Positions 9,741 through 55,719 of a stretch of DNA of 64,000 nucleotides are shown here, piece by piece. Source of the DNA: Curtobacterium sp. MCSS17_015. GTDB taxonomy: Bacteria; Actinomycetota; Actinomycetes; Actinomycetales; Microbacteriaceae. Position numbers and translations under genes: made by a program. The stretch covers positions 186,001 to 250,000 of the forward strand of contig NZ_CP126256.1 in assembly GCF_003234265.2 (NCBI RefSeq), given 5' to 3'. The notes under the pieces were generated by a model. The model made no database searches and was not told where the DNA came from. It saw only the letters and a list, made by a program, of their open reading frames with translations. Each line of letters opens with the position of its first letter. Position 1 is the stretch's first letter.

Positions 9741-10917
9741 GGGTGCTCCTGTTCCTGGTGGTCCGCAATGGGATGGGTGCCGACAGTTCCTCGAGCGAGG
9801 CGGCGAGCCCGCGCTGCAGGGCGAACTGGCCGGCGCCGACGAGGCCGGCGTCGGCCCCCAGCGAGGCGCGCTCGATGACGAGGTGCTGCGTGACGAGCGG
9901 GTGGCAGCTCTCGTAGAGCTGGCTCCGCACGGCGGCGACGAAGGGGTCGAGGGTGGACAGGATGCCGCCGAGGGAGACGGCGTCCGGGTTGAAGAAGTTC
10001 ACGTTGGCGGCGAGCACCTCGCCGAGGTAGCGCCCGGCCAGGCGGACGGCGCGGGTCGTCTCCGGGTGCGCCTCGGACGCCAGGCGGACCACGTCCTGCG
10101 TGGTGCTGACGTCCACGCCGGCCTCGCGGAGGATCCGGACCAGGGCGGCCCCGGACGCCACGGTCTCGAGGCAGCCGGTGTTGCCGCACGAGCACGGGGT
10201 GTCACCCGCCGCGTCGATCCGCACGTGCGTGATGTCCCCCGCGGCGCCGGTCGAGCCGCGGTAGAGCTGCCCGTCGATGACGATCCCCGCGCCGATCGCC
10301 GACCCGGCCTTCACCGTGATCGCCTGCCGTCTGGTGGACGGCTGCACGGTCTGCTCGCCCGCGGCCATGCAGTTCGCGTCGTTGTCGATCGCGGCCGGCA
10401 CCCCGAAGTGCTCGGTGAGCCACGCGGCGACGGGGAAGCCGTTCCAGCCCGGCATCCGGCTCGGCAGGTCGACGACGCCCGCCGCGACGTCGACCGGACC
10501 CGGGAGGCTCAACCCGACCCCGCGCAGCCCGTCGCGTCCGCGTTCGGACACCAGGGCGTCGAGGAGCGCCGCCAGCGCAGCCAGGCCCGCGGTGGGACCG
10601 TCGGCGAGCGCGAACGGGACGGTCGAGACCGACTCGAGCGCGCCTCCCGGCAGGACGATCCCGATCCGGACGTGACCGCCACCGACGTCGGCGGCGACCG
10701 CGTACTCGTCGGTCCCGCCGATCCGGAGGACCTTCCGGGGCCGACCACCCGTGGAGACGTCGGTGCCCTCCTCCGCCAGGATGCCGTGGCCGAGGAGCTG
10801 CCCGACGACGTGCGACACGGTCGACGGAGCGGCGCCGAGCAACTGCGCGATCTCGGTGCGGCTCGACGCCTGCCCGCTCGCGATGAGCTCGAGCACGCGG
10901 GAGCTGAGGTCCGGCAC
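9733..10917 (-). CDS. ROK family transcriptional repressor
   Basis: A 394-residue ROK regulator (NagC/XylR/Mlc group). The N-terminal winged helix-turn-helix (about residues 5-65, with RTEIAQLLGAAPSTVSHVV) is followed by a sugar-kinase-like domain with an AADVGGGHVRIG nucleotide loop and the zinc motif CSCGNTGCLE. The GTG at 10917 is chosen because TTGGAGAAAGTC gives a GGAG site 7-8 bases upstream; an earlier TTG overlaps that site. It heads the M81-cutC operon and faces the ABC importer. It probably represses both divergent operons until a sugar or amino-sugar ligand appears. Confidence 0.9.
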   Translation of the reverse strand: MPDLSSRVLELIASGQASSRTEIAQLLGAAPSTVSHVVGQLLGHGILAEEGTDVSTGGRPRKVLRIGGTDEYAVAADVGGGHVRIGIVLPGGALESVSTVPFALADGPTAGLAALAALLDALVSERGRDGLRGVGLSLPGPVDVAAGVVDLPSRMPGWNGFPVAAWLTEHFGVPAAIDNDANCMAAGEQTVQPSTRRQAITVKAGSAIGAGIVIDGQLYRGSTGAAGDITHVRIDAAGDTPCSCGNTGCLETVASGAALVRILREAGVDVSTTQDVVRLASEAHPETTRAVRLAGRYLGEVLAANVNFFNPDAVSLGGILSTLDPFVAAVRSQLYESCHPLVTQHLVIERASLGADAGLVGAGQFALQRGLAASLEELSAPIPLRTTRNRSTRV

Positions 10918-11013
10918 GACTTTCTCCAATCGGCGTCGTCCGAGCGCGGTGCTCGCCCGACTGCTCCGAGCCTACGGGGCAGGAGTGGTGGTCCGCGCTT
11001 TCCACCGTTCGGC

Positions 11014-11048
11014 AGAAACAGACTATTTACACGAGAACGTTTGTTTTT
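11014..11048. promoter_or_regulatory. AT-rich divergent promoter region with imperfect inverted repeat
   Basis: The only clearly AT-rich part of the 240-base gap between the ROK repressor and the substrate-binding protein. It holds an imperfect inverted repeat, AGAAACAGAC (11014-11023) and GTTTGTTTTT (11039-11048), matching at 8 of 10 positions. It is a candidate operator for the ROK protein; no footprint-level evidence exists in the sequence. Confidence 0.4.
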
Positions 11049-11157
11049 CCAACGACTTCGGCCATTGACTGTGGTCGTGCCACCGGGGCCTGGTCCTGAT
11101 CGCACTCCTGTCCCTCCACCACGCCGACGATGGCGTCCTCGCGCAAGGAGACACCGC

Positions 11158-12954
11158 ATGACCAAGCCCCGTCGCTGGGCCCTCCTCACCGGAGCCGCGC
11201 TCGCGGTGAGCGCACTGCTCGCCGGGTGTTCCGGGGGCGGTTCCGCCACCACCGGCACGACGTCCGACGAGATCGACTACGCGCTGCCGGCGAACTTCAC
11301 GCCGAACTGGATCCTCCCGATCGGCACCGCGGCGCACCTCAACACGAACAACGGCTCGATCGCGCAGTCGCTGTACGAGCGCCTCATCGCCTACGACGGG
11401 TCCACGGGCAAGATCGCGTGGAACAAGGCCGGGTCCGTCGCGACCGCTGCCGACTTCGCCGACGACGGCACGAGCGTCACGATCACGCTGGGGGACCGGC
11501 ACTGGTCCGACGGTGAGCCGATCACGAGCCGCGACGTCGAGTTCTGGTTCAACCTGATCAAGGCGAACGCGCAGGACTGGGGTTCCTACTCCGAGGGCAA
11601 GGCGCCGGACAACTGGACGTCCTTCACGACCGTCGACGACACGCACTTCACGATCGCGTTCGACCAGGCGTACAACCAGGACTGGATGCTCGCCAACCAG
11701 CTGAGCTACATCATCCCGCTCCCGCAGCACGCCTGGGACAAGACGAGCGCCTCGGCCGAGGTGACCGACGCCGACCGCACCCCCGAGGGCGCGAAGCAGG
11801 TCTGGAAGTACCTCAACACCGCCGCCGGCAAGATCGCCGACTACGACTCCGACCCACTGTGGAAGACGATCTCCGGCCCGTACGGCCTGTCGTCGTTCAC
11901 GACCGCGGGGAAGGTCCAGCTCACCGCGAACGGGAAGTACGACGGTGGCGAGAAGGCGTCCATCAAGACGGTCAACCTGCTGCCGTTCACCACCGCCGAC
12001 GCCGAGACGAACGCGCTGCGCTCCGGGGCGGTCGACTACGGCTACATCAACGCCACCGACCTCGACCAGGAGGACTCCTTCACGGCGAAGGGCTACGAGG
12101 TCGACCCCTGGACGGGCTGGGCGATCACGTACATGCCGTACAACTTCAACAACCCGGACATGGGCGCCGTCTTCAAGCAGCTGTACGCCCGCCAGGCCGT
12201 GCAGATGTCGATCGACCAGGAGTCGCTGTCGAAGGTCGTCTTCAACGGCACCGCCACCTCGACCTACGGGCCGATCCCGCAGGCGCAGGAGTCCGACTAC
12301 GTCTCCGACGTGCAAGAGGACAACCCCTACCCGTTCAGCACGAAGAAGGCCACGGCACTGCTGACCGGTCACGGCTGGACCAAGCAGGGCGGCACCATGG
12401 TCTGCACCGACGCGGGCAACGGTGACGACCAGTGCGGCGAGGGCGTGGCCGAGGGCACGGAGTTCACCATGCAGGTGCTCTCGCAGTCCGGCTCGACCGT
12501 GACCGACAACATGATGAGCGCCATTCAGTCGTCGCTCGCGAAGACCGGCATCGGCTTCACGATCAAGACCGCGCCGGTGTCGAGCGTCCTGTCGCAGACC
12601 CCGACCTGCACCCCGGACGAGGCGAGCTGCGACTGGGACCTGTCGTTCTTCGGCACCGCTGGCAGCTGGTACTTCCCGGCCTACCCGACCGGTGAGTCGC
12701 TCTTCTCGACCGGCGGCTCCGCGAACTTCGGCAGCTACTCGAACAAGGAGGTCGACGCGCTCATCGACGCGACGACCACCTCGACCGACACGAGCGCCGT
12801 GCAGGACTACAGCGCGGCCGTCGCGGAGGACCTGCCGGTGATCTGGCTGCCGAGCCCGGACTACCAGATCTCCGTCAAGAAGAGCGGCCTGACCGGGTTC
12901 GACCAGGACTCGCTCGCGAACTTCCACCCCGCCCAGTGGAAGTGGAGCAAGTAG
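11158..12954 (+). CDS. ABC transporter substrate-binding lipoprotein, peptide/nickel type (SBP family 5)
   Basis: A 598-residue lipoprotein. The signal sequence ends in the lipobox LLAGC, with Cys24 as lipid anchor, followed by a Gly/Ser/Thr linker. The mature part has the SBP_bac_5 architecture used for oligopeptides, nickel or glycosides. AAGGAG lies 9 bases before the ATG. It leads an operon with two permeases, a fused ATPase and a ROK kinase. A 43-base perfect hairpin follows the stop, which would let the binding protein be made in excess over the permeases. The linked M81 peptidase suggests a peptide-type ligand, but this is an inference. Confidence 0.92.
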   Translation: MTKPRRWALLTGAALAVSALLAGCSGGGSATTGTTSDEIDYALPANFTPNWILPIGTAAHLNTNNGSIAQSLYERLIAYDGSTGKIAWNKAGSVATAADFADDGTSVTITLGDRHWSDGEPITSRDVEFWFNLIKANAQDWGSYSEGKAPDNWTSFTTVDDTHFTIAFDQAYNQDWMLANQLSYIIPLPQHAWDKTSASAEVTDADRTPEGAKQVWKYLNTAAGKIADYDSDPLWKTISGPYGLSSFTTAGKVQLTANGKYDGGEKASIKTVNLLPFTTADAETNALRSGAVDYGYINATDLDQEDSFTAKGYEVDPWTGWAITYMPYNFNNPDMGAVFKQLYARQAVQMSIDQESLSKVVFNGTATSTYGPIPQAQESDYVSDVQEDNPYPFSTKKATALLTGHGWTKQGGTMVCTDAGNGDDQCGEGVAEGTEFTMQVLSQSGSTVTDNMMSAIQSSLAKTGIGFTIKTAPVSSVLSQTPTCTPDEASCDWDLSFFGTAGSWYFPAYPTGESLFSTGGSANFGSYSNKEVDALIDATTTSTDTSAVQDYSAAVAEDLPVIWLPSPDYQISVKKSGLTGFDQDSLANFHPAQWKWSK

Positions 12955-45805: not shown

Positions 45806-46849
45806 ATGCGTGCAGTCGTGTTCGAGCAGTACCAGACGTTCCCCTCCCTCACGGAGGTCGAGAAGCCCGCGCCCGGGCCCGGCGAGGTGCTCCTCAAGGT
45901 CGCCGGTGCCGGAGCCTGCCACTCCGACGTCGCCGTGTACCGCGAGTTCCAGGAGGGGCAGCCCGGCGCACAGCGGCCCGGGTTCGTCCTCGGACACGAG
46001 AACTCCGGCTGGGTCGAGTCCGTCGGGGACGGCGTCACCGGCTTCACGGAGGGCGACGCGTACCTGGTCTACGGCCCGGTCGGCTGCGGCCACTGCCGGT
46101 ACTGCTCGAAGGGGCAGGACACGTACTGCGAGAACGCCGCCACGAACCCGTACATGGCCATCGGCCTGGGGCGCGACGGCGGAATGGCGGAGTACGTGAC
46201 CGTCCCCGCCCGCAACCTCGTGCCGCTCGGGGACGCCGACCCCGTCGCGGCCGCACCCCTGAGCGACGCGGCCCTCACGCCGTACCACGCCGTCAAGAAC
46301 TCCCTGCCGAACCTGGCCGGCGGCGGGAAGTACGCGCTGGTCGTGGGTCTGGGCGGCCTCGGGCAGATCGCCGTCCAGATCCTCACCGCGCTGACCGGCG
46401 CGACCGTCATCGCGACGGACATGAAGGAGGACGCCATGGCGCGCGCTGCCGAGCGCGGCGCGATCACCGTCCCCGGCGGTCCCGACCAGGTCGCGCGGAT
46501 CCGTGAGATCACCGGCGGCAAGGGCGTCGACGCGGCGTTCGACTTCGTCGGCGCGACCCCGACCATCCGGACCGCTCAGGCGTCGATGGCCGTCGGTGGT
46601 CGCTTCACCGTGGTCGGCATCGCCGGCGGCACCACCGAGTGGGACTTCTTCTCGACGCCGTACGAGTCGACGATCACGAACACCTACTGGGGCACCATCG
46701 AGGACCTGCACGACGTCGTCGCGATGTACCGCGCGGGGCAGATCGAGCCGGACGTCGAGCGGTACGCCCTCGCCGACGCGCTCGAGGCGTACCGCAAGCT
46801 CGAGGCCGGCGAACTGTCCGGCCGCGCGGTGGTCGTCCCGACGCTCTGA
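45806..46849 (+). CDS. Zinc-dependent NAD(P) alcohol dehydrogenase
   Basis: A 347-residue medium-chain dehydrogenase. The catalytic zinc ligands are Cys in GACHSDV and His-Glu in GHENSGWV; the structural zinc cysteines are CGHCRYCSKGQDTYC. The Rossmann motif is VGLGGLGQIA. The DMKED segment after it suggests NAD preference because of the acidic residue. TAGCTT (45794-45799) ends 6 bases before the ATG (leaderless). It is the last gene before conjugation-type sequence begins. The substrate is unknown. Confidence 0.92.
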   Translation: MRAVVFEQYQTFPSLTEVEKPAPGPGEVLLKVAGAGACHSDVAVYREFQEGQPGAQRPGFVLGHENSGWVESVGDGVTGFTEGDAYLVYGPVGCGHCRYCSKGQDTYCENAATNPYMAIGLGRDGGMAEYVTVPARNLVPLGDADPVAAAPLSDAALTPYHAVKNSLPNLAGGGKYALVVGLGGLGQIAVQILTALTGATVIATDMKEDAMARAAERGAITVPGGPDQVARIREITGGKGVDAAFDFVGATPTIRTAQASMAVGGRFTVVGIAGGTTEWDFFSTPYESTITNTYWGTIEDLHDVVAMYRAGQIEPDVERYALADALEAYRKLEAGELSGRAVVVPTL

Positions 46850-46872
46850 CCGATCAAGAAGGGCACCGTCGA

Positions 46873-48327
46873 GTGGACATCGGTTTCGACGGCGCTCTCG
46901 GTGAATGTCGCGTCCCGCTCGCCAGGGACCTGCGCTCCGGGACGATGCTCTACGCATCGTGGGAGGACGTCACGATCGGCATCGCCGGCCCCCGCGTCGG
47001 GAGAACGACCGCGCTGGTCGTCCCGGCGATCCTCGCCGCTCCCGGCGCCCTGTTGACGACGTCGAACAAGCCCGACACCGTCGAGACGACCCGCAAGCTG
47101 CGCGACGAGGTCGGCACGACGTGGGTGTTCGACCCGCAGCAGGTCGTCGACGAGGAGCCCACCTGGTGGTGGAACCCGCTCTCCTACGTCACCGACGACA
47201 CCACGGCCGCGAAGCTGGCCGGGCACTTCGCCGCCGGCTCCCGCGAGCCCGGCGACGAGGGCGACGCGTACTTCGACCCCGCCGGCAAGAACCTCCTCGC
47301 CGGGATGCTGCTCGCTGCCGCCCTCGACGGGCGCGCGATCACCGACGTGTTCACGTGGCTGACCGACCCCGACAACCGCGAGATGGTGTCGGTCCTCCGA
47401 AGCGGCGGGTACCCGCTCGTGGCGGACGCCGTCGAGTCGGAGACGCGCGCCCCTGAGCGGCAGCGTGCCGGTGTGTACGGCACGGCTCGGAAGATGGCGG
47501 GCTGCCTGCAGAACAGCCGCATCGGCCGGTGGGTGACGCCCGTCGGCGGGAACATGCGCGGCGACCGCCGCCCGCAGTTCAACCCGGACGAGTTCGTGCG
47601 CGGCACCGACACCCTCTACTCGCTCTCCAAGGAGGGTGAGGGCACGGCCGCACCGTTGGTGACCGCGCTGACCGTCGCCGTCGTCGAGGCAGGCGAGCGC
47701 CTGGCGAAGACGCAGGCCGGTGGCCGCATGGCCACGCCGCTGCTGTGCATCCTCGAGGAGGCCGCGAACGTGTGCCGGTGGAAGGACCTCCCGGATCTTT
47801 ACTCGCACTACGGGTCGCGCGGGATCCCGATCGTGTCGATCTTCCAGTCCTGGTACCAGGGCGTCGACGTGTTCACCCTCGCCGGCATGCGGAAGCTGTT
47901 CAGCGCCGCCAACGACGTCGTGTACCTCGGCGGTGTCAAGGAGACCGAGTGGCTACGGGAGCTGTCGGAGCTCATCGGCGACTACGACCACGAGACCATC
48001 TCGTACTCGATGAACAAGGGCGTCCGGTCGACGAGCGTGCAGAACACCCGCCGCCGCATCCTCGACCCATCCGAGCTCGCAGGGCTACCCCGGGGACGTG
48101 CGATCCTGATCGCGTCGGGTCTGCGGTCCTCAATGGTGAAGACGGCACCCTGGTACGAAGGCCCGGAGGCCGAGAAGGTCCGCGCGTCGATCACCGCATA
48201 CGAGGACGCCGCCCGGGCCGAGCGCACGGGGTCGACGTCGCCGCTGGCGTCGCCGTTGCCGGCGGGGGGCAACCCGTGGCTGAACGCCTCGACGGTGCAG
48301 CCGATCGAGGCGGAGGACAACCGATGA
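46873..48327 (+). pseudogene. TraG/VirD4-like coupling ATPase lacking its N-terminal membrane part
   Basis: 484 residues of a type IV coupling ATPase of actinobacterial mobile elements. The nucleotide loop is GPRVGRTT at residues 39-46, with Arg where Walker A has Lys. LLCILEEAANVC is the Walker B. SYSMNKGVRSTSVQNTRRRILDPSEL and the GLRSSMVKTAPWYEG tail are typical. Family members begin with about 100-200 residues including membrane helices; here the frame begins 24 bases after the alcohol dehydrogenase stop, so that part is missing. The GTG at 46873 has only a distant AAGAAGG. It is probably a decayed remnant. The next gene overlaps by ATGA. Confidence 0.8.
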
Positions 48328-48752: not shown

Positions 48753-49013
48753 ATACGTCGGGATAGGTGCGACACCGGTGCTGCAGCGCGACGGTTTCTC
48801 CTGCGGGAGATGCTGCGCATTCACCTGACCCGGAGGAACAGAACCCACGGTGCCGCGCTGTCCGTCCTGGCCCAGGGTGACAGCGGTGATGACATCTGCC
48901 GACCTCCTCGACCACCCGGTCGCGAGTGCTTTAGTCGCGCGACGGAAGGGTCATGAAAGAAAGTGCGCCCCGTGCCGCATCGGTGGGGGACCAGGGTCGG
49001 TTACGATCCGACG

Positions 49014-50012
49014 GTGCCCCGTGTGACCCTCGCTGACGTCGCTCGCCACGCGGGGGTCTCGAGAGCCGCCGCCTCCCTCGTGGTCCGAGACGAGGGAAGG
49101 CTCAGCGAGGCGACCCGCAATCGTGTTCGCGCCTCCATGCACGAGTTGGGATACGTCTACCATCGCGGTGCGGCATCCCTGAGGATGCAGAACACCTCTA
49201 CCTTCGGGCTGATCGTGACGGACCTCACTAATCCGTTCTTCGCCGAGATGACCGTCGGGTTCGAGGAACGTCTCGAGCGCGACGACCTCCTCGCGTTCGT
49301 CACGAACACCTTCGACCGACCCGGCCGGCAGGAGGCTTTGGTCCGCAGCATGATTGAACGGGGCGTCGACGCGCTCGTGGTCGTTCCCGTGCAGACCGAG
49401 GCGGGTACTGCGACGATCGATGCAGGAGGCCTACCAGTCCTCGCAGTGACCCGTCGTCCGGAGGATGGAATTGCGTATCTGGGGCCCGACGACCGAGTCG
49501 GCGGTCACCTCGCAGCGCGTCACCTCATCGACCACGGGCATCGACGTTTGGTCTACCTCGGGGGACCGCGCCACGGTTCCGCCCGCAAGGAGCGGATCGC
49601 TGCCGTCAGAGAGGAACTGGCGGCAGCGGGAGGAACTCTCGTCGCAGACCTCGACGGGCGGACCTCTCTCGGAACGGGGCGGGACGCTGGCCGGGTCCTC
49701 CTCGATAGCGGCGTCAGCTTCGACGCGGTCATCTGTCACAGCGACGAGATCGCGTTCGGGTTCGCGGCAGCGCTCCGCACGGCTGGTCGAGCGCCGGCGA
49801 GCGTGCCCATGGTTGGGTTCGATGGACTCGCGGCCGGCGCCGTCATGGACCCACCGCTGACCAGCGTCTCCGTCGGCCCGGGACGGCTCGGCGCGTACGC
49901 GGTCGACGTGCTCACAGGGCTCCGAGCGGGAGCCGAGCCGACGACCGAACTCCTGACGCCTCAGCTTCTCGTCCGCTCGTCCTGCGGATGCGCGGACGAC
50001 CAGGATCCCTGA
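49014..50012 (+). CDS. LacI family transcriptional regulator
   Basis: A 332-residue LacI/GalR regulator. The N-terminal HTH and hinge are VTLADVARHAGVSRAAASLVV and ELGYVYHRGAASL. The sugar-binding-protein fold follows, including TDLTNPFFAEMT and the VPMVGFDGLAAG segment. The tail ends SCGCADDQ. TACGAT (49002-49007) ends 6 bases before the GTG, a leaderless start that overrules an upstream in-frame ATG at 48963. It probably controls the sulfatase operon that follows, through the 29-base inverted repeat at 50068. Confidence 0.92.
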   Translation: MPRVTLADVARHAGVSRAAASLVVRDEGRLSEATRNRVRASMHELGYVYHRGAASLRMQNTSTFGLIVTDLTNPFFAEMTVGFEERLERDDLLAFVTNTFDRPGRQEALVRSMIERGVDALVVVPVQTEAGTATIDAGGLPVLAVTRRPEDGIAYLGPDDRVGGHLAARHLIDHGHRRLVYLGGPRHGSARKERIAAVREELAAAGGTLVADLDGRTSLGTGRDAGRVLLDSGVSFDAVICHSDEIAFGFAAALRTAGRAPASVPMVGFDGLAAGAVMDPPLTSVSVGPGRLGAYAVDVLTGLRAGAEPTTELLTPQLLVRSSCGCADDQDP

Positions 50013-50059
50013 TCCGAGACACCCGCACGGCAGCGGTAGCGGTCCCCCTCCAACGAGAG

Positions 50060-50096
50060 TAGGGTCTGCTGGATCGATCTAGTAGATCGATCCAGC
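50060..50096 (+). promoter_or_regulatory. LacI-type operator with possible -10 before the sulfatase gene
   Basis: A perfect 13-base inverted repeat, GCTGGATCGATCT-AGT-AGATCGATCCAGC (50068-50096). Each arm contains the self-complementary word GATCGATC with a central CG, the pattern of LacI-family half-operators, so two dimers or one tetramer could bind. TAGGGT (50060-50065) just upstream is a plausible -10, so a bound repressor would sit at the transcription start. Confidence 0.65.
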
Positions 50097-50128
50097 AAAT
50101 CGTCAGCGTCGCCGAAAGGACATCATCC

Positions 50129-51490
50129 GTGGCCGCAGTCCAAGGAACCCGCCCAGACATCGTGCTCGTGCACGGGCACGACCTCGGCCGGTGGCTCACC
50201 GTCTACGGCATGCCCTCGGTGCCGAGCACCGAGATCCAGGCGTTCGCTGACCGCAGTGTCGTCTTCGACAACGCTCACGCGGCAGCACCACTGTGTTCGC
50301 CGGCCCGCGCATCGCTCTTCACGGGCCTCGCGCCGCATCGACATGGCGTCCAAGGCCTCGCGCACCACCAGTGGCGGTACCGCCACAACGTCCTCACGGC
50401 TCCGGAACGCCTCCGCCCGCTCGGTTACCGGTCCACACTGATCGGCCTGCAGCATGAGAACGCCGACCCGTCCGTGCTCGGTTTCGACGAGGTCGGCGGC
50501 GTCGGGTTCCTGCCCCGAGCGCACCAGGTAGTCGACGCCACATCGGCGTGGCTCGAGGACCTCGCACCGCGGGCCGAACGTGAACCGCTGTTCCTGACGG
50601 TCGGCGTGTGGGAGGTGCACCGCCCGTGGCCGGCCGAGGACTACACGCCCGCCGATCCCGCGGCGGTGGACGTGCCGGACTACCTCCCGGACAACGCCGA
50701 CACCCGCGAGGACATCGCCGCGTTCCACGGCTCGATCGCGCAGTTCGACGACGCCATGGGTACGCTGTTCCGCCGCATCGACGAGGTGCTCGACCCGGCG
50801 ACGACCCTGGTCGTGTTCACCACGGACCACGGGGCGGCGTTCCCCCGCGCGAAGAGCACGCTCTACGACGCCGGTACCGGGGTCTCGTTCATCGTGCGCC
50901 CCCCGACGGCGTGGAACGTCGCTCCGGGGCGGCGCGAGCAACTCGTCAGCCACCTCGACATCGTCCCGACGCTCCTCGAACTCGCCGGCGGCGACCTCGA
51001 CGCCGGACTCGAGGGGCAGAGCCTCATCCCGGTACTCGCTGACGGCGTGCCGGACGAAGACCGTGCAGTCGTGACGGTCAAGAGCCACCACGACGCGTAC
51101 GACCCGATACGCGCCGTCCGCTCCCGCGACTTCGCGTACATCCGCAACTTCACCGATGGCCCGAAGCTGACCCTGTCGCTCGACCTCGAGAACAGCCCCA
51201 CCAGGCGAGGGATGGGCGACGCGCACCTCGAACCCCGCCCTCGCGAGGAACTCTACGACCGCCGCGTCGACCCAGACGAACTCACCAACGTGGCGGCGCA
51301 GCCCGAGTACGCGCCCGTGCTCAGGACCTTCGCCACCACCCTCGACCGCTGGATGGACGACACACACGACCCGGTCCGACGCGGCGAGGTCGAACTCCCC
51401 GCTCACCGTGACCGTGAGGTCGACGCGCTTCCGGCCGTCCCCACCGTGTCAGCACCGCATCCCACCATCACCCAGACCGAGACGAACTGA
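50129..51490 (+). CDS. Type I sulfatase (formylglycine-dependent, N-sulfoglucosamine-sulfohydrolase-like)
   Basis: A 453-residue sulfatase. Cys56 in the signature CSPARASLFTG is the residue converted to formylglycine. The metal-binding start reads VLVHGHDLGRWL, the SHDLG-like form of heparan-N-sulfatase relatives, with TTDHGAAF later. No signal peptide is present, so it works in the cytosol. AAAGGA lies 7 bases before the GTG. The maturase that could activate it is encoded at 53097, and a sugar-porter MFS lies between them, so the substrate is probably a small imported sulfated sugar or ester. Confidence 0.92.
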   Translation: MAAVQGTRPDIVLVHGHDLGRWLTVYGMPSVPSTEIQAFADRSVVFDNAHAAAPLCSPARASLFTGLAPHRHGVQGLAHHQWRYRHNVLTAPERLRPLGYRSTLIGLQHENADPSVLGFDEVGGVGFLPRAHQVVDATSAWLEDLAPRAEREPLFLTVGVWEVHRPWPAEDYTPADPAAVDVPDYLPDNADTREDIAAFHGSIAQFDDAMGTLFRRIDEVLDPATTLVVFTTDHGAAFPRAKSTLYDAGTGVSFIVRPPTAWNVAPGRREQLVSHLDIVPTLLELAGGDLDAGLEGQSLIPVLADGVPDEDRAVVTVKSHHDAYDPIRAVRSRDFAYIRNFTDGPKLTLSLDLENSPTRRGMGDAHLEPRPREELYDRRVDPDELTNVAAQPEYAPVLRTFATTLDRWMDDTHDPVRRGEVELPAHRDREVDALPAVPTVSAPHPTITQTETN

Positions 51491-51500
51491 GGACCATCAC

Positions 51501-52862
51501 GTGACCACCATGTCTGCGACGAAGCAGCGCACGCCCTGGCTCATCTACGCCTTCGGCGCCCTGGCCGAACTGCTCTTCGGCTACGACACCGGCATCATCG
51601 GCGTCGCCATGCTCTCCATCCACGGTGAGTTCGACCTCACCCCGGCGGAGCAGGGCTTCGTCGTGAGCTCCCTGCTGCTCGGCGCCGCCATCGGCGTCGG
51701 GACCGCTGGACGGCTCGCCGACCGCCTCGGACGGAAGCCGGTGATCCTCATCACCGGCATCGTCTTCGCCGTCGGCGGCCTCGTCGCAGCGCTCGCTCCG
51801 AGCGTCGTGGTCCTGGTCATCGCACGCCTCGTGATGGGTCTCGGCGTCGGCGCATCCGCCGTCGTGGTGTCCGTGTACCTCGTCGAGGTAGCGCCCACAC
51901 GGCACCGCGGGAAGATCGGCTCGCTCGGCCAGCTCGCCGTCGTCACCGGTGTTCTCGTCGCCTACCTCGTCGGCTACGGCCTCCAGCCCTCCGGCGATTG
52001 GCGGCTCATGCTCGGCCTCTCGATCGCACCGGCACTCATTCTCGTGGTCGGGCTCGCCCTGATGCCCGAGACGCCGCGTTGGCTCGTCGCTCACGGACGA
52101 TCCGATGACGCGCGTTCCTCGCTCGGCCGCCTCGGGCGCCCGGACACGGCGAGCATCGAGGTCGCCGACCTCGAGCGTGCGCACGCCGCAGACGCTCGCT
52201 CGGGTCTCAGTACCGGCGAGGTGATCCGACGTATGTTCGCGCCGGCGGTTCGATCTCGGACCTGGGCTGCGATCGGGCTCGCTGTCCTCGTGCAGTTCGT
52301 CGGGACCAATTCGATCCTCTACTTCGCCCCGACCACGCTCGTGCACGCAGGATTCGGCGAGACCGCAGCCGTGACCGCCAACCTCTCCGTCGGTGTCGCG
52401 AACGTCCTCTTCACGCTCCTCGGCATGACGCTGGTCGACCGGATTCCCCGTCGGCGACTCCTCACCATCGGCACCATCGGCATGATCGCCGCGATGGGAG
52501 CCCTGTCGATCTACACCACCGTCGAACCGGACCCGTCGCCGACCGGCGCCTGGGTGACCCTCGTCAGCATGATCGTGTTCCTGTCCGCGTTCGCCCTGTC
52601 CTGGGGTGTGTGCGTGCGCGTGGTCATCTCCGAGCTGTTCCCGTCCGCGATCCGAGGAACCGCCGCCGGCCTGGTCCTGGTGCTGAACTGGCTCGCCAAC
52701 TTCGTCGTCGGGCAGACCTTCCCGTCGCTCCTCGCGTTCAGTGGGGCTCTCAGCTTCGCGATCTTCGCCGTCGTCGGCGTCCTCGCGCTGGTGTTCATCG
52801 GAAAGATGCTCCCCGAGACCGGCGACGGCCGCAGCCTTGAAGAGGTCGACGAACGAGCATGA
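51501..52862 (+). CDS. MFS transporter, sugar porter family
   Basis: A 453-residue 12-helix carrier of the sugar porter family. Diagnostic motifs: GYDTGIIGVAML near the first helix, GRLADRLGRKPV (loop 2-3), VEVAPTRHRGKIGSLGQL, PETPRWLVAHGR at the central loop and the SELFPSAIRGTAAG loop before helix 11. GAGGA lies 7 bases before the GTG at 51501. It starts 10 bases after the sulfatase stop, so they share a message. It is likely to import the sulfated substrate or its desulfated product; the substrate itself is unknown. Confidence 0.92.
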   Translation: MTTMSATKQRTPWLIYAFGALAELLFGYDTGIIGVAMLSIHGEFDLTPAEQGFVVSSLLLGAAIGVGTAGRLADRLGRKPVILITGIVFAVGGLVAALAPSVVVLVIARLVMGLGVGASAVVVSVYLVEVAPTRHRGKIGSLGQLAVVTGVLVAYLVGYGLQPSGDWRLMLGLSIAPALILVVGLALMPETPRWLVAHGRSDDARSSLGRLGRPDTASIEVADLERAHAADARSGLSTGEVIRRMFAPAVRSRTWAAIGLAVLVQFVGTNSILYFAPTTLVHAGFGETAAVTANLSVGVANVLFTLLGMTLVDRIPRRRLLTIGTIGMIAAMGALSIYTTVEPDPSPTGAWVTLVSMIVFLSAFALSWGVCVRVVISELFPSAIRGTAAGLVLVLNWLANFVVGQTFPSLLAFSGALSFAIFAVVGVLALVFIGKMLPETGDGRSLEEVDERA

Positions 52863-52868
52863 CGCGGC

Positions 52869-52899
52869 GGTGGCCGAGGGATTCAAGCTCTCGGCCACC
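52869..52899 (+). terminator. Hairpin after the MFS gene
   Basis: A perfect 10-base stem GGTGGCCGAG / CTCGGCCACC (52869-52878 and 52890-52899) with an 11-base loop, 7 bases past the MFS stop. It splits the sulfatase-MFS unit from the maturase gene, 200 bases downstream, and may be a partial terminator. Confidence 0.6.
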
Positions 52900-53096
52900 C
52901 CGTCATGCCCCGCCTGGTCGAACCACGGACCCTGCACGAGCACCACGGTCACGACTGATGGGCGCCGCCCGGACGGGACGTTCGCGTCCAGTATCCCCAC
53001 GCCCACGCCGATGCGTCGGATCGCTGCTCTTTGCGGTCTTGCACCGCGGGATGGGCCTGAGTACTAGTGCCGTCGACCAGAACGGAGAATGAGACC

Positions 53097-54149
53097 GTGA
53101 CCGAGAACTCAGCGGACCGCGCACACGACTGCTGCGCACCTACCGACCGCTCGGCATTGCTGACCGGTTCCCGGCTGCCCCTTGTCGCGATGGACACGGC
53201 CGGAACCCAGGACAGCACCATCCGTCACACGATCCGTCGGGCTTCCATACCTGCGCAGACGTTCCTGATGGGTGACGGGCAGGGCGATGGGAAGTGGGGC
53301 GATGGTGAAACCCCGGTGCATCCGGTGACGGTGTCCGCGTTCGACGTCGACACCACGAGTGTCACCAACGACGACTTCGCCCGTTTCATCGACGCCACCG
53401 GGTACCGCACCGAGGCTGAGACGTTCGGCTACTCGGCCGTGTTCCACCTCGCTCTCGACGCCGACGATGCGGACATCCTGGGACAGCCGCCCCAGACGCC
53501 GTGGTGGTTCGGAGTCCGCGGTGCGGACTGGCGTCACCCGGGCGGTCCACGCTCCTGCATCGACGGGCTGGGCGACCACCCGGTGGTGCATGTCTCGTGG
53601 AACGACGCTCAGGCGTATTGCGACTGGGCAGGTCGGGCGCTGCCGACGGAAGCGCAGTGGGAGGCCGCGTCGCGCGGCGGTCTCGACCAGGCCCGGTACC
53701 CGTGGGGCGACGACCTCGGCGCCGCTGACGGCGACGGGCGGGACTGGCGGGTGAATATCTTCCAGGGCTCGTTCCCGACCTCGAACACGCTGGACGACGG
53801 GTTCCTGACGACGGCGCCGGTACGGACGTACGAGCCGAACGGCTACGGGCTGTGGCAAACGGTCGGAAACGTGTGGGAGTGGTGTGCCGACGCCTTCGAC
53901 GTCGGCACCTACGCCCGCGACGCTGCATCCGGAACGGCGTCCGACCCTGCCGGACCTGGTGCCGTCCGCCCAGATGCGCCGCGGGTGATGCGCGGCGGCT
54001 CGTACCTGTGCCATGACTCGTACTGCAACCGCTACCGCAACGCCGCTCGTTCACAGAACACGCCGGACTCATCGATGGGGAACGCCGGCTTCCGCACCGT
54101 CTCCCGCGGGATGAACGACGGGGCGGCTCGGCTGGAAGGCATGGCGTGA
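53097..54149 (+). CDS. Formylglycine-generating enzyme (sulfatase-modifying factor)
   Basis: A 350-residue aerobic FGE that oxidises the sulfatase CxPxR cysteine to formylglycine. The C-type-lectin-like FGE-sulfatase domain covers about 47-338. The copper/active-site pair is Cys305 and Cys310 in GGSYLCHDSYCNRYRNAAR, equivalent to human Cys336/Cys341, so this is a true FGE and not a cysteine-less homologue. The N-terminal DCCAP segment is also typical of actinobacterial FGE. GGAG lies 9 bases before the GTG at 53097. Its stop overlaps the DUF202 start. Confidence 0.94.
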   Translation: MTENSADRAHDCCAPTDRSALLTGSRLPLVAMDTAGTQDSTIRHTIRRASIPAQTFLMGDGQGDGKWGDGETPVHPVTVSAFDVDTTSVTNDDFARFIDATGYRTEAETFGYSAVFHLALDADDADILGQPPQTPWWFGVRGADWRHPGGPRSCIDGLGDHPVVHVSWNDAQAYCDWAGRALPTEAQWEAASRGGLDQARYPWGDDLGAADGDGRDWRVNIFQGSFPTSNTLDDGFLTTAPVRTYEPNGYGLWQTVGNVWEWCADAFDVGTYARDAASGTASDPAGPGAVRPDAPRVMRGGSYLCHDSYCNRYRNAARSQNTPDSSMGNAGFRTVSRGMNDGAARLEGMA

Positions 54150-54532
54150 GCATTGAGGATCTGTCCCCGGTAAAGGACCGACGGTTCCCACGCGGGGTGT
54201 ACCGACACGGGGCGGAGCCGGATGCCCGGTTCAGTCTCGCGAACGAGCGGACCTTCCTCGCGTGGATCCGCACCGCGCTCGCGCTGCTCGCCGGTGGAGT
54301 CGCGTTGGAGGCGCTCGGACTGAGCATTCAACCCGGTTTCCGGTTTGCAGCGTCCCTGCTGCTGATCGTCACCGGGATCCTCACCCCACTGCAGGCGTGG
54401 ATCGGATGGGTCCGGTCAGAGCGAGCCCTGCGCCAGGGCACATCGTTGCCGGCCGCAGCGCTCGCGCTGCCGATCGGGATCGCGGTGATCGTGGTCGGGG
54501 TGCTGATCTTCCTCGGTGTCGTGTTCCGGTGA
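54146..54532 (+). CDS. DUF202 (YidH-like) membrane protein
   Basis: A 128-residue protein. The DUF202 signature ARFSLANERTFLAWIRTALALLAGGVALE precedes three membrane helices (about 40-60, 65-85 and 105-126). It resembles E. coli YidH. The GTG overlaps the FGE stop (GTGA) and the TGA overlaps the next GTG, so it is tightly coupled to the maturase. The function is unknown. Confidence 0.88.
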   Translation: MSIEDLSPVKDRRFPRGVYRHGAEPDARFSLANERTFLAWIRTALALLAGGVALEALGLSIQPGFRFAASLLLIVTGILTPLQAWIGWVRSERALRQGTSLPAAALALPIGIAVIVVGVLIFLGVVFR

Positions 54533-54885
54533 CCGACTCGGGCCGGCAGGTCTTCGACCCTGGGCTGCAGCCGGAACGCACCGCCCTCGCGTGGCGGAGA
54601 ACCGGGTTGGCGATCACCGTCGCAGCCCTGGTCGCAGTGCGGATCCTGCCCGAGGTACTGGGCCCCTGGGCGATCGTGCCCGCTGGCCTCGGCCTCGCCG
54701 CCGCAGTTGCAGTCTTGATTGCCGCTCATCGACGACACCAGGCCGTTCACCGCACGCTCATCGACGCAGATACTGATCGCGTTTCCCTGCCGTCCGGCGC
54801 ACTACCTTTCGCCGTCACCGTTCTCGTCACGGGAGGCGGCATCGCAGCCGCGATCGTCGTCCTCATGACGCACCTCGAGCAGTAG
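54529..54885 (+). CDS. DUF202 (YidG-like) membrane protein
   Basis: A 118-residue second DUF202 protein with the DPGLQPERTALAWRRTGLAI signature and three membrane helices. It resembles E. coli YidG in size and layout. The GTG overlaps the previous stop (GTGA). It is the last gene of the sulfatase locus. The function is unknown. Confidence 0.86.
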   Translation: MTDSGRQVFDPGLQPERTALAWRRTGLAITVAALVAVRILPEVLGPWAIVPAGLGLAAAVAVLIAAHRRHQAVHRTLIDADTDRVSLPSGALPFAVTVLVTGGGIAAAIVVLMTHLEQ

Positions 54886-55125: not shown

Positions 55126-55719
55126 ATGGTGAGACTGCTCGGGTATACGCGTATCAGCACTGGAGCACAGGACGCGACACTGCAAGTTGATGCGTTGGTC
55201 GCGGCGGGGGTGCAGGAGCGGGACATCTTCGCTGATGTCACTTCGGGCCGAAAGGAAGCTGCTGCTCGTCCTGGGATGGGCCGGCTGCTCGAGCACGCCG
55301 CTGCCGGCGACACGGTCGTGGTGTGGCGGGTTGATCGGCTCGGCCGATCGCTCGTCGACGTATTGAGCACGGTGGCGATGTTGGGGGAGCGGGGCATCGG
55401 TGTCCGGTCGGTGTCGGACGGGATCGACCCGGCGACGTCGACGGGTCGGCTGATGTTGAACCTAATGGCGACCCTGGCGGAGTACGAACGCGAGCTCATC
55501 GTCGAACGGGTCACCGCCGGCATCGCTGCAGCGCGGGAGTCAGGGACCCGGTTCGGGCGTCCGCCGTCGGATCCGAAGATCATCGCTCGGAAGCTCGCGA
55601 TCGTGAACGAAGCACGAGCCGCTGGCCACACTGCCGCGGATGCCGCGGAGTTGGTGGGGTGGTCGCGGGCGACCTTGTACCGGCATCAAGCGCAGGCTGC
55701 AGCGCCCGTAGACGAATAA
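55126..55719 (+). CDS. Serine recombinase (resolvase/invertase family)
   Basis: A 197-residue recombinase of resolvase size. The catalytic Ser11 lies in GYTRISTGAQD, the Arg cluster in WRVDRLGRSLVDV, and the long helix in LMATLAEYERELIVERVTAG. The C-terminal Hin-type HTH is HTAADAAELVGWSRATLYRH. It probably resolves or inverts DNA at the repeats just upstream. No transposase accompanies it, so it may be a leftover of a Tn3-like element or plasmid. Confidence 0.93.
   Translation: MVRLLGYTRISTGAQDATLQVDALVAAGVQERDIFADVTSGRKEAAARPGMGRLLEHAAAGDTVVVWRVDRLGRSLVDVLSTVAMLGERGIGVRSVSDGIDPATSTGRLMLNLMATLAEYERELIVERVTAGIAAARESGTRFGRPPSDPKIIARKLAIVNEARAAGHTAADAAELVGWSRATLYRHQAQAAAPVDE

Follow-up and report, generated by a model that had tools for sequence, protein, structure and literature searches.

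DUF202 protein pairs as recurrent neighbours of sulfatase genes and candidate oxyanion exit channels related to Vtc1

Why should two DUF202 proteins be encoded directly behind a formylglycine-generating enzyme (FGE) in a sulfatase locus? The window analysed here, a 64,000-nucleotide stretch of the genome of Curtobacterium sp. MCSS17_015, raises this question. Intracellular cleavage of sulfate esters leaves a bacterium with a doubly charged ion that it has to get rid of, and to our knowledge there are few exit routes for intracellular sulfate. The pair as a sulfate exit would be a concrete, testable candidate, giving a function to a broadly distributed domain that includes YidG and YidH of E. 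coli and, if true, a simple bacterial model of the yeast polyphosphate channel.

Six genes lie on the forward strand between positions 49014 and 54885. The first (49014–50012, in a reading frame opening at 48963) encodes a LacI-family regulator matching PF00356 and PF13377. It is followed by a perfect palindrome at 50067–50097, with 15-nt arms around a 1-nt centre, which occurs once in the genome, 31 bases 5′ of the sulfatase start, and is likely to be a LacI-family operator. The sulfatase (50129–51490; SGSH_C and PF00884, E 4.1e-30, 105.6 bits against a cut-off of 25) is a type I enzyme of the Cys type, its C-x-P-x-R motif being present as CSPAR. Next comes a sugar-porter MFS transporter (51501–52862 from its predicted start codon; PF00083, E 6.5e-102; TIGR00879 above cut-off), which is likely to import the sulfated substrate. 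The FGE (53097–54149, in a frame opening at 53067) would start at the GTG at 53097, which is preceded by GGAGAA. It scores 236.3 bits against PF03781 (curated cut-off 23.3; E 5.6e-70) and the stretch YLCHDSYCNRYR, near its C-terminus, holds both cysteines of CHDSYC, which we take to be the catalytic pair, in agreement with its earlier description as a true FGE with both active-site cysteines. No signal peptide was recognised in the sulfatase or the FGE. DUF202-A (54146–54532; PDARFSLANERTFLAWIRT), of the YidH type, resembles Vtc1, and DUF202-B (54529–54885; DPGLQPERTALAWRRT) is of the YidG type by alignment. Both pass the PF02656 cut-off of 23.4 bits, with 63.8 bits (E 2.1e-17) and 52.9 bits (E 5.1e-14) respectively, and a genome-wide search gave exactly these two DUF202 matches. 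Start and stop codons overlap as GTGA between FGE and DUF202-A (54146–54149) and between DUF202-A and DUF202-B (54529–54532). The initial annotation had placed the six genes in a single run. All six are present, with the last three overlapping start-to-stop, but they may form two transcription units, because an inverted repeat at 52869–52899 (15-nt arms, 87% complementary) and a gap of 234 bases from the transporter stop to the preferred FGE start separate the transporter from the FGE. The repeat possibly marks the end of the first unit, its role as a terminator being unsure since no T-run follows it in the sequence. Neither the FGE nor either DUF202 protein matched the defence-system profiles, and DUF202-A had no match in phage records.

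A likeness to the E. coli yidFGHIJKL cluster (L003) had been pointed out, and it stands in kind: both loci hold a Cys-type sulfatase without a signal peptide, a DUF202 A and B pair, a maturase-derived gene, a transporter and a regulator. The families of the last two differ, as had been said, with an AraC-family regulator and a sodium symporter-family transporter in E. coli against LacI and MFS in the window, where nothing corresponds to YidI. The part of the parallel that fails is YidF as the counterpart of the FGE. YidF has no Pfam match at E 0.1, and its match to TIGR03942, a profile of radical-SAM maturases, begins only at profile position 160 (best stretch 160–245 of 363); judged by this match, it is the remnant of a radical-SAM maturase (anSME) without the radical-SAM part, and the two maturase families are unrelated. 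Short YidF-like forms in seven loci (L003, L063, L064, L172, L173, L178 and L186) start with MTG[SC] and enter the maturase profile at positions 161–164, and the relatives at the place of YidF are full length in L137, L141, L147 and L175. In a plasmid locus of Serratia entomophila (L055) a sulfatase, a regulator and both DUF202 proteins, A and B, form one run with a full-length maturase, as in the window, but the maturase is an anSME in place of FGE, the transporter is a PTS and the regulator is of the GntR type.

Is the association more than chance? In a survey of 75 actinobacterial genomes, 9 of 83 DUF202 loci had FGE no more than 10 kb away where 0.54 were expected (P 3e-9, with related genomes counted singly and two congener pairs among the matches). 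SulP permeases were found within 5 kb of at least 5 of the 83 loci (0.45 expected) and sulfite-oxidase-family genes within 5 kb of at least 6 (0.62 expected), the expectations coming from full per-genome counts and the observed numbers being lower bounds. The survey left out G003, G009, G123, G145 and one weak row of G072. Among the best 80 of 585 relatives in genome_contigs, 21 loci had a Cys-type sulfatase and/or maturase within 5.5 kb and 7 further loci another sulfur marker. Sulfatase was the commonest neighbour family among the examined loci (31 loci with the LtaS-like L091, 30 without it). The PF00884 proteins of L091 and L097, which are LtaS-like and have no C-x-P-x-R motif, were not counted as sulfatases. 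One locus titled Chryseobacterium (L137), the DUF202-A of which groups with Enterobacter and is likely to be contamination, is still inside the count of 16 of 80. On the DUF202-A tree, built from few columns and with unsettled bootstrap, the sulfatase/maturase label, which was also given to L091, L097 and the FGE-like protein of L128, requires 24 changes, at least 16 of them forced by starred branches, and the linkage to sulfatase recurs many times on it. The initial annotation had proposed DUF202 pairs as an unrecognised component of sulfatase systems, with a lack of enrichment beside such genes as the result to speak against it. The survey, neighbour counts and tree instead support the pairs as a recurrent and enriched companion of sulfatase and maturase genes.

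The range of partners bears on what the pair might do. The maturase beside DUF202 is exchangeable, being either FGE or a radical-SAM anSME, and among the anSMEs are relatives of E. coli YidF that have the full length. An alkylsulfatase accompanies DUF202 in L070 and L150, a soluble sulfite oxidase ends 4 bp before the pair in L059, a SoeABC-like operon lies beside it in L058 and an MBL-rhodanese protein overlaps it in L056. In three loci of one Coriobacteriia-type family (L092, L228 and L229) a SulP sulfate permease overlaps DUF202 or sits just upstream. This wide partner set, together with the recurrent sulfatase linkage, argues for the handling of sulfate or sulfite and against the pair aiding sulfatase maturation through membrane placement or the supply of copper or oxygen to FGE, which is the least probable of the readings weighed here. 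The overlap of the FGE and DUF202 genes in the window would fit a maturation role, as would the occurrence of FGE in 10 of 15 Microbacteriaceae genomes with DUF202 against 7 of 44 without (Fisher P 5e-4, the weak match of G003 counted as positive and G009 left out). Those 7 FGEs are nevertheless true ones (>200 bits), and the pairs of G007, G034 and G035 come without PF03781 or PF00884 among the matches listed; a dependence of FGE on DUF202 is not supported. As the same pair adjoins radical-SAM maturases and sulfur genes that need no formylglycine, copper supply and maturation were set aside as its main role; of the three functions first guessed, release of sulfate fits best, while copper supply and membrane placement are disfavoured.

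If sulfate is to leave, it has to be formed inside. A hydrophobic N-terminal segment was found in none of 32 linked Cys-sulfatases (30 loci), using a hydrophobicity rule on the 60 residues before the domain rather than a trained predictor. Since 30 of 30 unlinked actinobacterial sulfatases were also without a signal peptide, this is a necessary property that does not discriminate for specificity. The sulfite-oxidase-family proteins linked to DUF202 are mixed: three of the nine inspected, all abutting DUF202, look cytosolic (L059, the first of L109, and L122), four have membrane segments N-terminal to the catalytic domain (the second of L109, L225, L226 and L227) and two, from the Streptomyces-like L079 and L113, have a Tat-type signal, which is also present in a third, more distant protein (L084). 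The idea that DUF202 generally goes with a cytosolic sulfite oxidase was therefore dropped, and with most of these enzymes outside the cytosol their enrichment is no general pointer to sulfate made inside and at most indicates sulfite leaving. The mixed placement makes an oxyanion channel less probable and a general channel more so. That DUF202 assists the import of sulfated substrate or sulfate seems improbable: some loci do hold SulP and ABC transporters, but the linked loci already have importers (MFS, PTS, ABC or sodium symporter), and beside sulfite-forming or sulfite-oxidising genes it is exit, not entry, that is needed. SulP is itself able to carry sulfate, which counts against an exit channel.

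DUF202 is not exclusive to sulfur loci. No sulfur marker lies within 5.5 kb in 102 of 162 examined loci, a non-random sample made up of 58 regions of the Actinomycetota survey (20 of the survey regions picked partly for FGE proximity), the window, 22 plasmid regions, E. coli and the best 80 of the 585 genome_contigs relatives. The nearest relatives of the window DUF202-A on the tree (L046, L048 and L045) are also unlinked, in genomes without PF00884 among the matches listed. Both observations count against an exit channel. The first also favours a channel for anions in general or for osmotic relief, not specific to sulfur and often recruited by sulfate-releasing operons because these load the cytoplasm with anion, a reading which is unlikely but deserves weight. 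The 117 of 198 immediate neighbours of marker-less loci that were Pfam-scanned show no dominant family (MFS_1 is the best with 7 of 117), which speaks for such a channel, as does the known homologue, a polyanion channel; this reading sits less well with sulfatase as the commonest neighbour and with the enrichment of FGE, SulP and sulfite-oxidase-family genes.

That homologue is Vtc1, a channel subunit of the eukaryotic VTC polymerase (PDB 7ytj, 8i6v and 9umg). A DUF202-A profile matches Vtc1 (E 1.1e-7) and the membrane domain of Vtc3 (E 0.0069), the single window sequence reaching only 0.029 against Vtc1; from the profile match and the common ANERTFLSW motif the membrane domains are homologous. 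The available parts of one study (PMC9911596) place K24 and R31 of Vtc1 in the pore lining and report that mutation of channel residues in any VTC subunit abolished vacuolar polyphosphate. In the alignment R28 and R35 of DUF202-A from the window stand opposite these two residues, so that the pore-lining basic residues are matched in place. R28 is kept in 98% of 81 A-type sequences, R35 being constant by construction in a set defined by the letters NERT. In 98% of 72 B-type sequences the arginine of ERT is kept, without an obvious equivalent of K24; this, and the higher synthesis in vitro of Vtc1 K24A/R31A (PMC9911596, same parts), count against an exit channel. VTC carries polymerase and SPX domains and makes polyphosphate, whereas the bacterial pairs stand alone, consist of two unlike subunits and often neighbour sulfur genes, and both window proteins match DUF202 only in Pfam, with no polyphosphate polymerase domain. 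The Vtc1 homology could also mean that bacterial DUF202 conducts polyphosphate or phosphate and that the sulfur linkage is incidental. This is very improbable given the enrichment of FGE and SulP; PPK2 lies within 10 kb of 0 of 83 loci, weak evidence with 0.50 expected.

The best explanation, tentative and with a little less than an even chance, is a sugar-sulfate utilisation island with the DUF202 pair as an oxyanion exit channel. It draws on directly observed gene content, the absence of signal peptides, enrichment and recurrence, and the Vtc1 homology. The MFS porter would bring a sulfated compound in, FGE would turn the CSPAR cysteine of the sulfatase into formylglycine and the cytoplasmic sulfatase would free sulfate within the cell. 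DUF202-A and DUF202-B would then form a hetero-oligomeric membrane channel on the five-subunit plan of Vtc1/3/4, the NERT helix lining the pore, and pass sulfate, or sulfite in other loci, outward. More doubtful is the wider proposal that DUF202 pairs are widespread, unrecognised two-subunit exit channels for cytoplasmic sulfate or sulfite, with eukaryotic VTC as a specialised relative.

Two papers considered as links between DUF202 and sulfatases proved, in their accessible parts, to contain only DUF2023/DUF2027 (PMC10434189) and only DUF2029 (PMC5819568). YidH was a D-alanine exporter candidate in a screen, and D-Ala accumulation hardly changed when it was expressed, according to the available portion of PMC10299036. 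Like the proposed DUF202 channel, the putative sulfate exporters PSE/YeiH and the putative sulfite exporters TauE have been proposed to carry sulfate or sulfite of cytoplasmic origin out of the cell (excerpts of PMC11582611); these belong to other transporter families, set apart from DUF202 here by name only.

The six-gene run described in the initial annotation was confirmed in full on the + strand of the Curtobacterium genome (3.32 Mb, one contig, in which the window spans 186001-250000). It comprises a LacI-family regulator (49014-50012), a Cys-type sulfatase with the motif CSPAR (50129-51490), a sugar-porter MFS protein (51501-52862), an FGE with the stretch CHDSYC (53097-54149, the longest ORF opening at 53067), DUF202-A (54146-54532) and DUF202-B (54529-54885), with GTGA start/stop overlaps joining the last three. 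A perfect palindrome with 15-nt arms (50067-50097), present in a single copy in the genome and 31 bases upstream of the sulfatase, is likely to be the regulator site. Given an inverted repeat (87%) 3' of the transporter gene, the sulfatase-porter and FGE-DUF202-DUF202 segments may be separate transcription units. A search of the genome gave one PF00884 among the matches listed, one PF03781 and two DUF202 genes, both of the latter in this locus. The island is flanked by genes for a TraG/TraD-type coupling protein upstream (46639-48327) and a serine resolvase downstream (55126-55719), an arrangement that suggests a position inside or next to a mobile element.

The proposed parallel to the E. coli yid cluster holds for the sulfatase and the DUF202 pair, which both loci possess, but not for the maturases, which are unrelated. 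In E. coli K-12 yidG is of the DUF202 B-type and yidH of the A-type, yidJ encodes a Cys-type sulfatase (CTPAR), yidK a sodium symporter and yidL an AraC regulator. YidF has no match in Pfam; its similarity to TIGR03942, the profile for the anaerobic (radical-SAM) sulfatase maturase (E 5.4e-21), starts only at profile position 160. Maturases of full length (367-376 aa) adjoin DUF202-B, in the place of YidF, in three Enterobacteriaceae loci (L141, L147, L175) and in L137, while short forms of 162-178 aa are found in Escherichia, Citrobacter and Klebsiella (L003, where 115-612 is yidF, L172, L173, L178, L186, L063 and L064). The short forms retain the MTG start and their profile match begins at position 161-164, so YidF looks like a maturase that has lost its radical-SAM part through internal deletion, keeping the start and the C-terminal part. 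The record of L137 is titled Chryseobacterium sp. and its yid locus is Enterobacter-like, probably contamination of that assembly. The Enterobacter sp. EA-1 maturase adjoining a DUF202 pair (L139:8699-9832) is split into three reading frames.

Linkage of DUF202 to FGE, suspected from the window, exceeds chance. Of 83 DUF202 loci from 75 actinobacterial genomes, 9 (in 8 genomes) have a gene of the FGE family within 10 kb, where gene density predicts 0.54 (P 3e-9), and five have one within 2 kb, where 0.14 would be expected. In Microbacteriaceae (60 genomes minus G009) true FGE, defined as >200 bits, occurs in 10/15 genomes with DUF202 and 7/44 without (Fisher P 5e-4). The relation is obligate in neither direction, as three genomes (G007, G034, G035) have the pair with no PF03781 and no PF00884 among the matches listed, and a congener (G031) has FGE and no DUF202. 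For the best 80 of 585 relatives in genome_contigs, a Cys-type sulfatase lies within 5.5 kb in 16 loci (L137 included) and a maturase without sulfatase in 5 more; SulP alone (3), sulfite oxidase (1), MBL-rhodanese (2) and alkylsulfatase (1) bring the loci with any sulfur marker to 28/80, the weak L128 and L190 being left out. Across all 162 loci, a biased collection and not a random sample, the commonest neighbour family by clustering was sulfatase (31 loci, 30 once the motif-less L091 is removed), followed by an ABC-type family (24 by membership, largely a single mycobacterial cluster) and anSME (15). Mapped on the 156-row DUF202-A tree, the sulfatase/maturase label required 24 changes, at least 16 of them forced by well-supported branches, versus 38 in shuffles; the linkage is thus clustered, yet has been gained or lost many times.

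The partners extend beyond FGE, and their common denominator is oxidised inorganic sulfur. Within 5 kb of the same 83 loci, SulP permeases occur at five or more (0.45 expected) and sulfite-oxidase-family genes at six or more (0.62 expected); PPK2, the polyphosphate control, occurs at none (0.27 expected). In L092 and L228 the SulP gene and DUF202 overlap; in L229 SulP precedes DUF202 by 0.3 kb. In Mycolicibacterium rufum (L059) 4 bp separate the pair from the end of an upstream sulfite oxidase gene, whose product has no signal sequence. In Rhizobium (L058) a molybdopterin/Fe-S/DmsC operon continues into the pair; the Fe4S4 domain of its large subunit begins at residue 15, leaving no space for a Tat signal, and the operon appears SoeABC-like, though no NCBIfam model names it as such. 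In Rhodococcus jostii pRHL3 (L056) a putatively persulfide-dioxygenase-like MBL-rhodanese protein overlaps the pair, with TusA, DsrE and rhodanese genes nearby. L070 combines an alkylsulfatase, an MBL enzyme that is not known to need formylglycine, with FGE and the pair.

A profile of 19 A-type sequences matched Vtc1 chains (E 1.1e-7) as well as the membrane domain of Vtc3 (E 0.0069), placing the membrane domain of Vtc1, by sequence comparison, in DUF202. According to passages of PMC9911596, the VTC channel is formed by the first helices of five subunits and lined by basic residues including Vtc1 K24 and R31, the latter at the narrowest point; channel-residue mutations in any subunit abolished vacuolar polyP, although Vtc1 K24A/R31A raised synthesis in vitro. 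K24 and R31 align with R28 and R35 of the window DUF202-A. R28 is conserved in 98% of 81 A-type sequences, a set selected by NERT, and 98% of 72 B-type sequences retain the ERT arginine. The most economical reading is that A and B would form a hetero-oligomeric oxyanion channel in the membrane that lets cytoplasmic sulfate or sulfite out; we infer its channel nature, the ion and the direction alike. A less specific anion channel is a serious rival, because 102/162 loci lack any sulfur marker within 5.5 kb, the 117 immediate neighbours scanned at these share no common theme, and the nearest relatives of the window pair (L046, L048, L045) are unlinked, with no PF00884 among the matches listed for their genomes. 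In the open-licence literature covered, which took in DUF202 and PF02656/COG2149, YidG with YidH, and YidF and YidJ, no report of a link between DUF202 and sulfatases was found, apparent co-mentions being false matches by their passages. The known candidate sulfate exporters in passages of PMC11582611, YeiH/PSE, belong to other families.

The 32 Cys-sulfatases of 30 linked loci have no hydrophobic N-terminal segment; this is non-discriminating, since 30/30 unlinked controls likewise have none. Those linked sulfite-oxidase-family proteins that appear to be cytosolic come from L059, L109 (first gene) and L122. Several membrane segments precede the catalytic domain in those of L109 (second gene, 10697-12346), L225, L226 and L227, which lie directly downstream of DUF202 and account for the enrichment within 2 kb (a single DUF202 gene was found in each of L225 and L226), and those of L079, L084 and L113 carry a Tat-type signal. 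These anchored or Tat partners would fit sulfite exit and oxidation outside, if the catalytic domains face outward; they do not demonstrate that sulfate arises inside the cell and count against the simple picture.

LTA-synthase-like PF00884 proteins without the C-x-P-x-R motif also occur near single or paired DUF202 genes (L091, L097). A DNA gyrase B-domain gene (640 aa, L060:8661-10583) lies inside a mycobacterial arylsulfatase-SulP-DUF202-FGE cluster; its protein cluster recurs in L043, L124, L132, L138 and L187, and a Gordonia locus (L062) likewise has an annotated gyrB.
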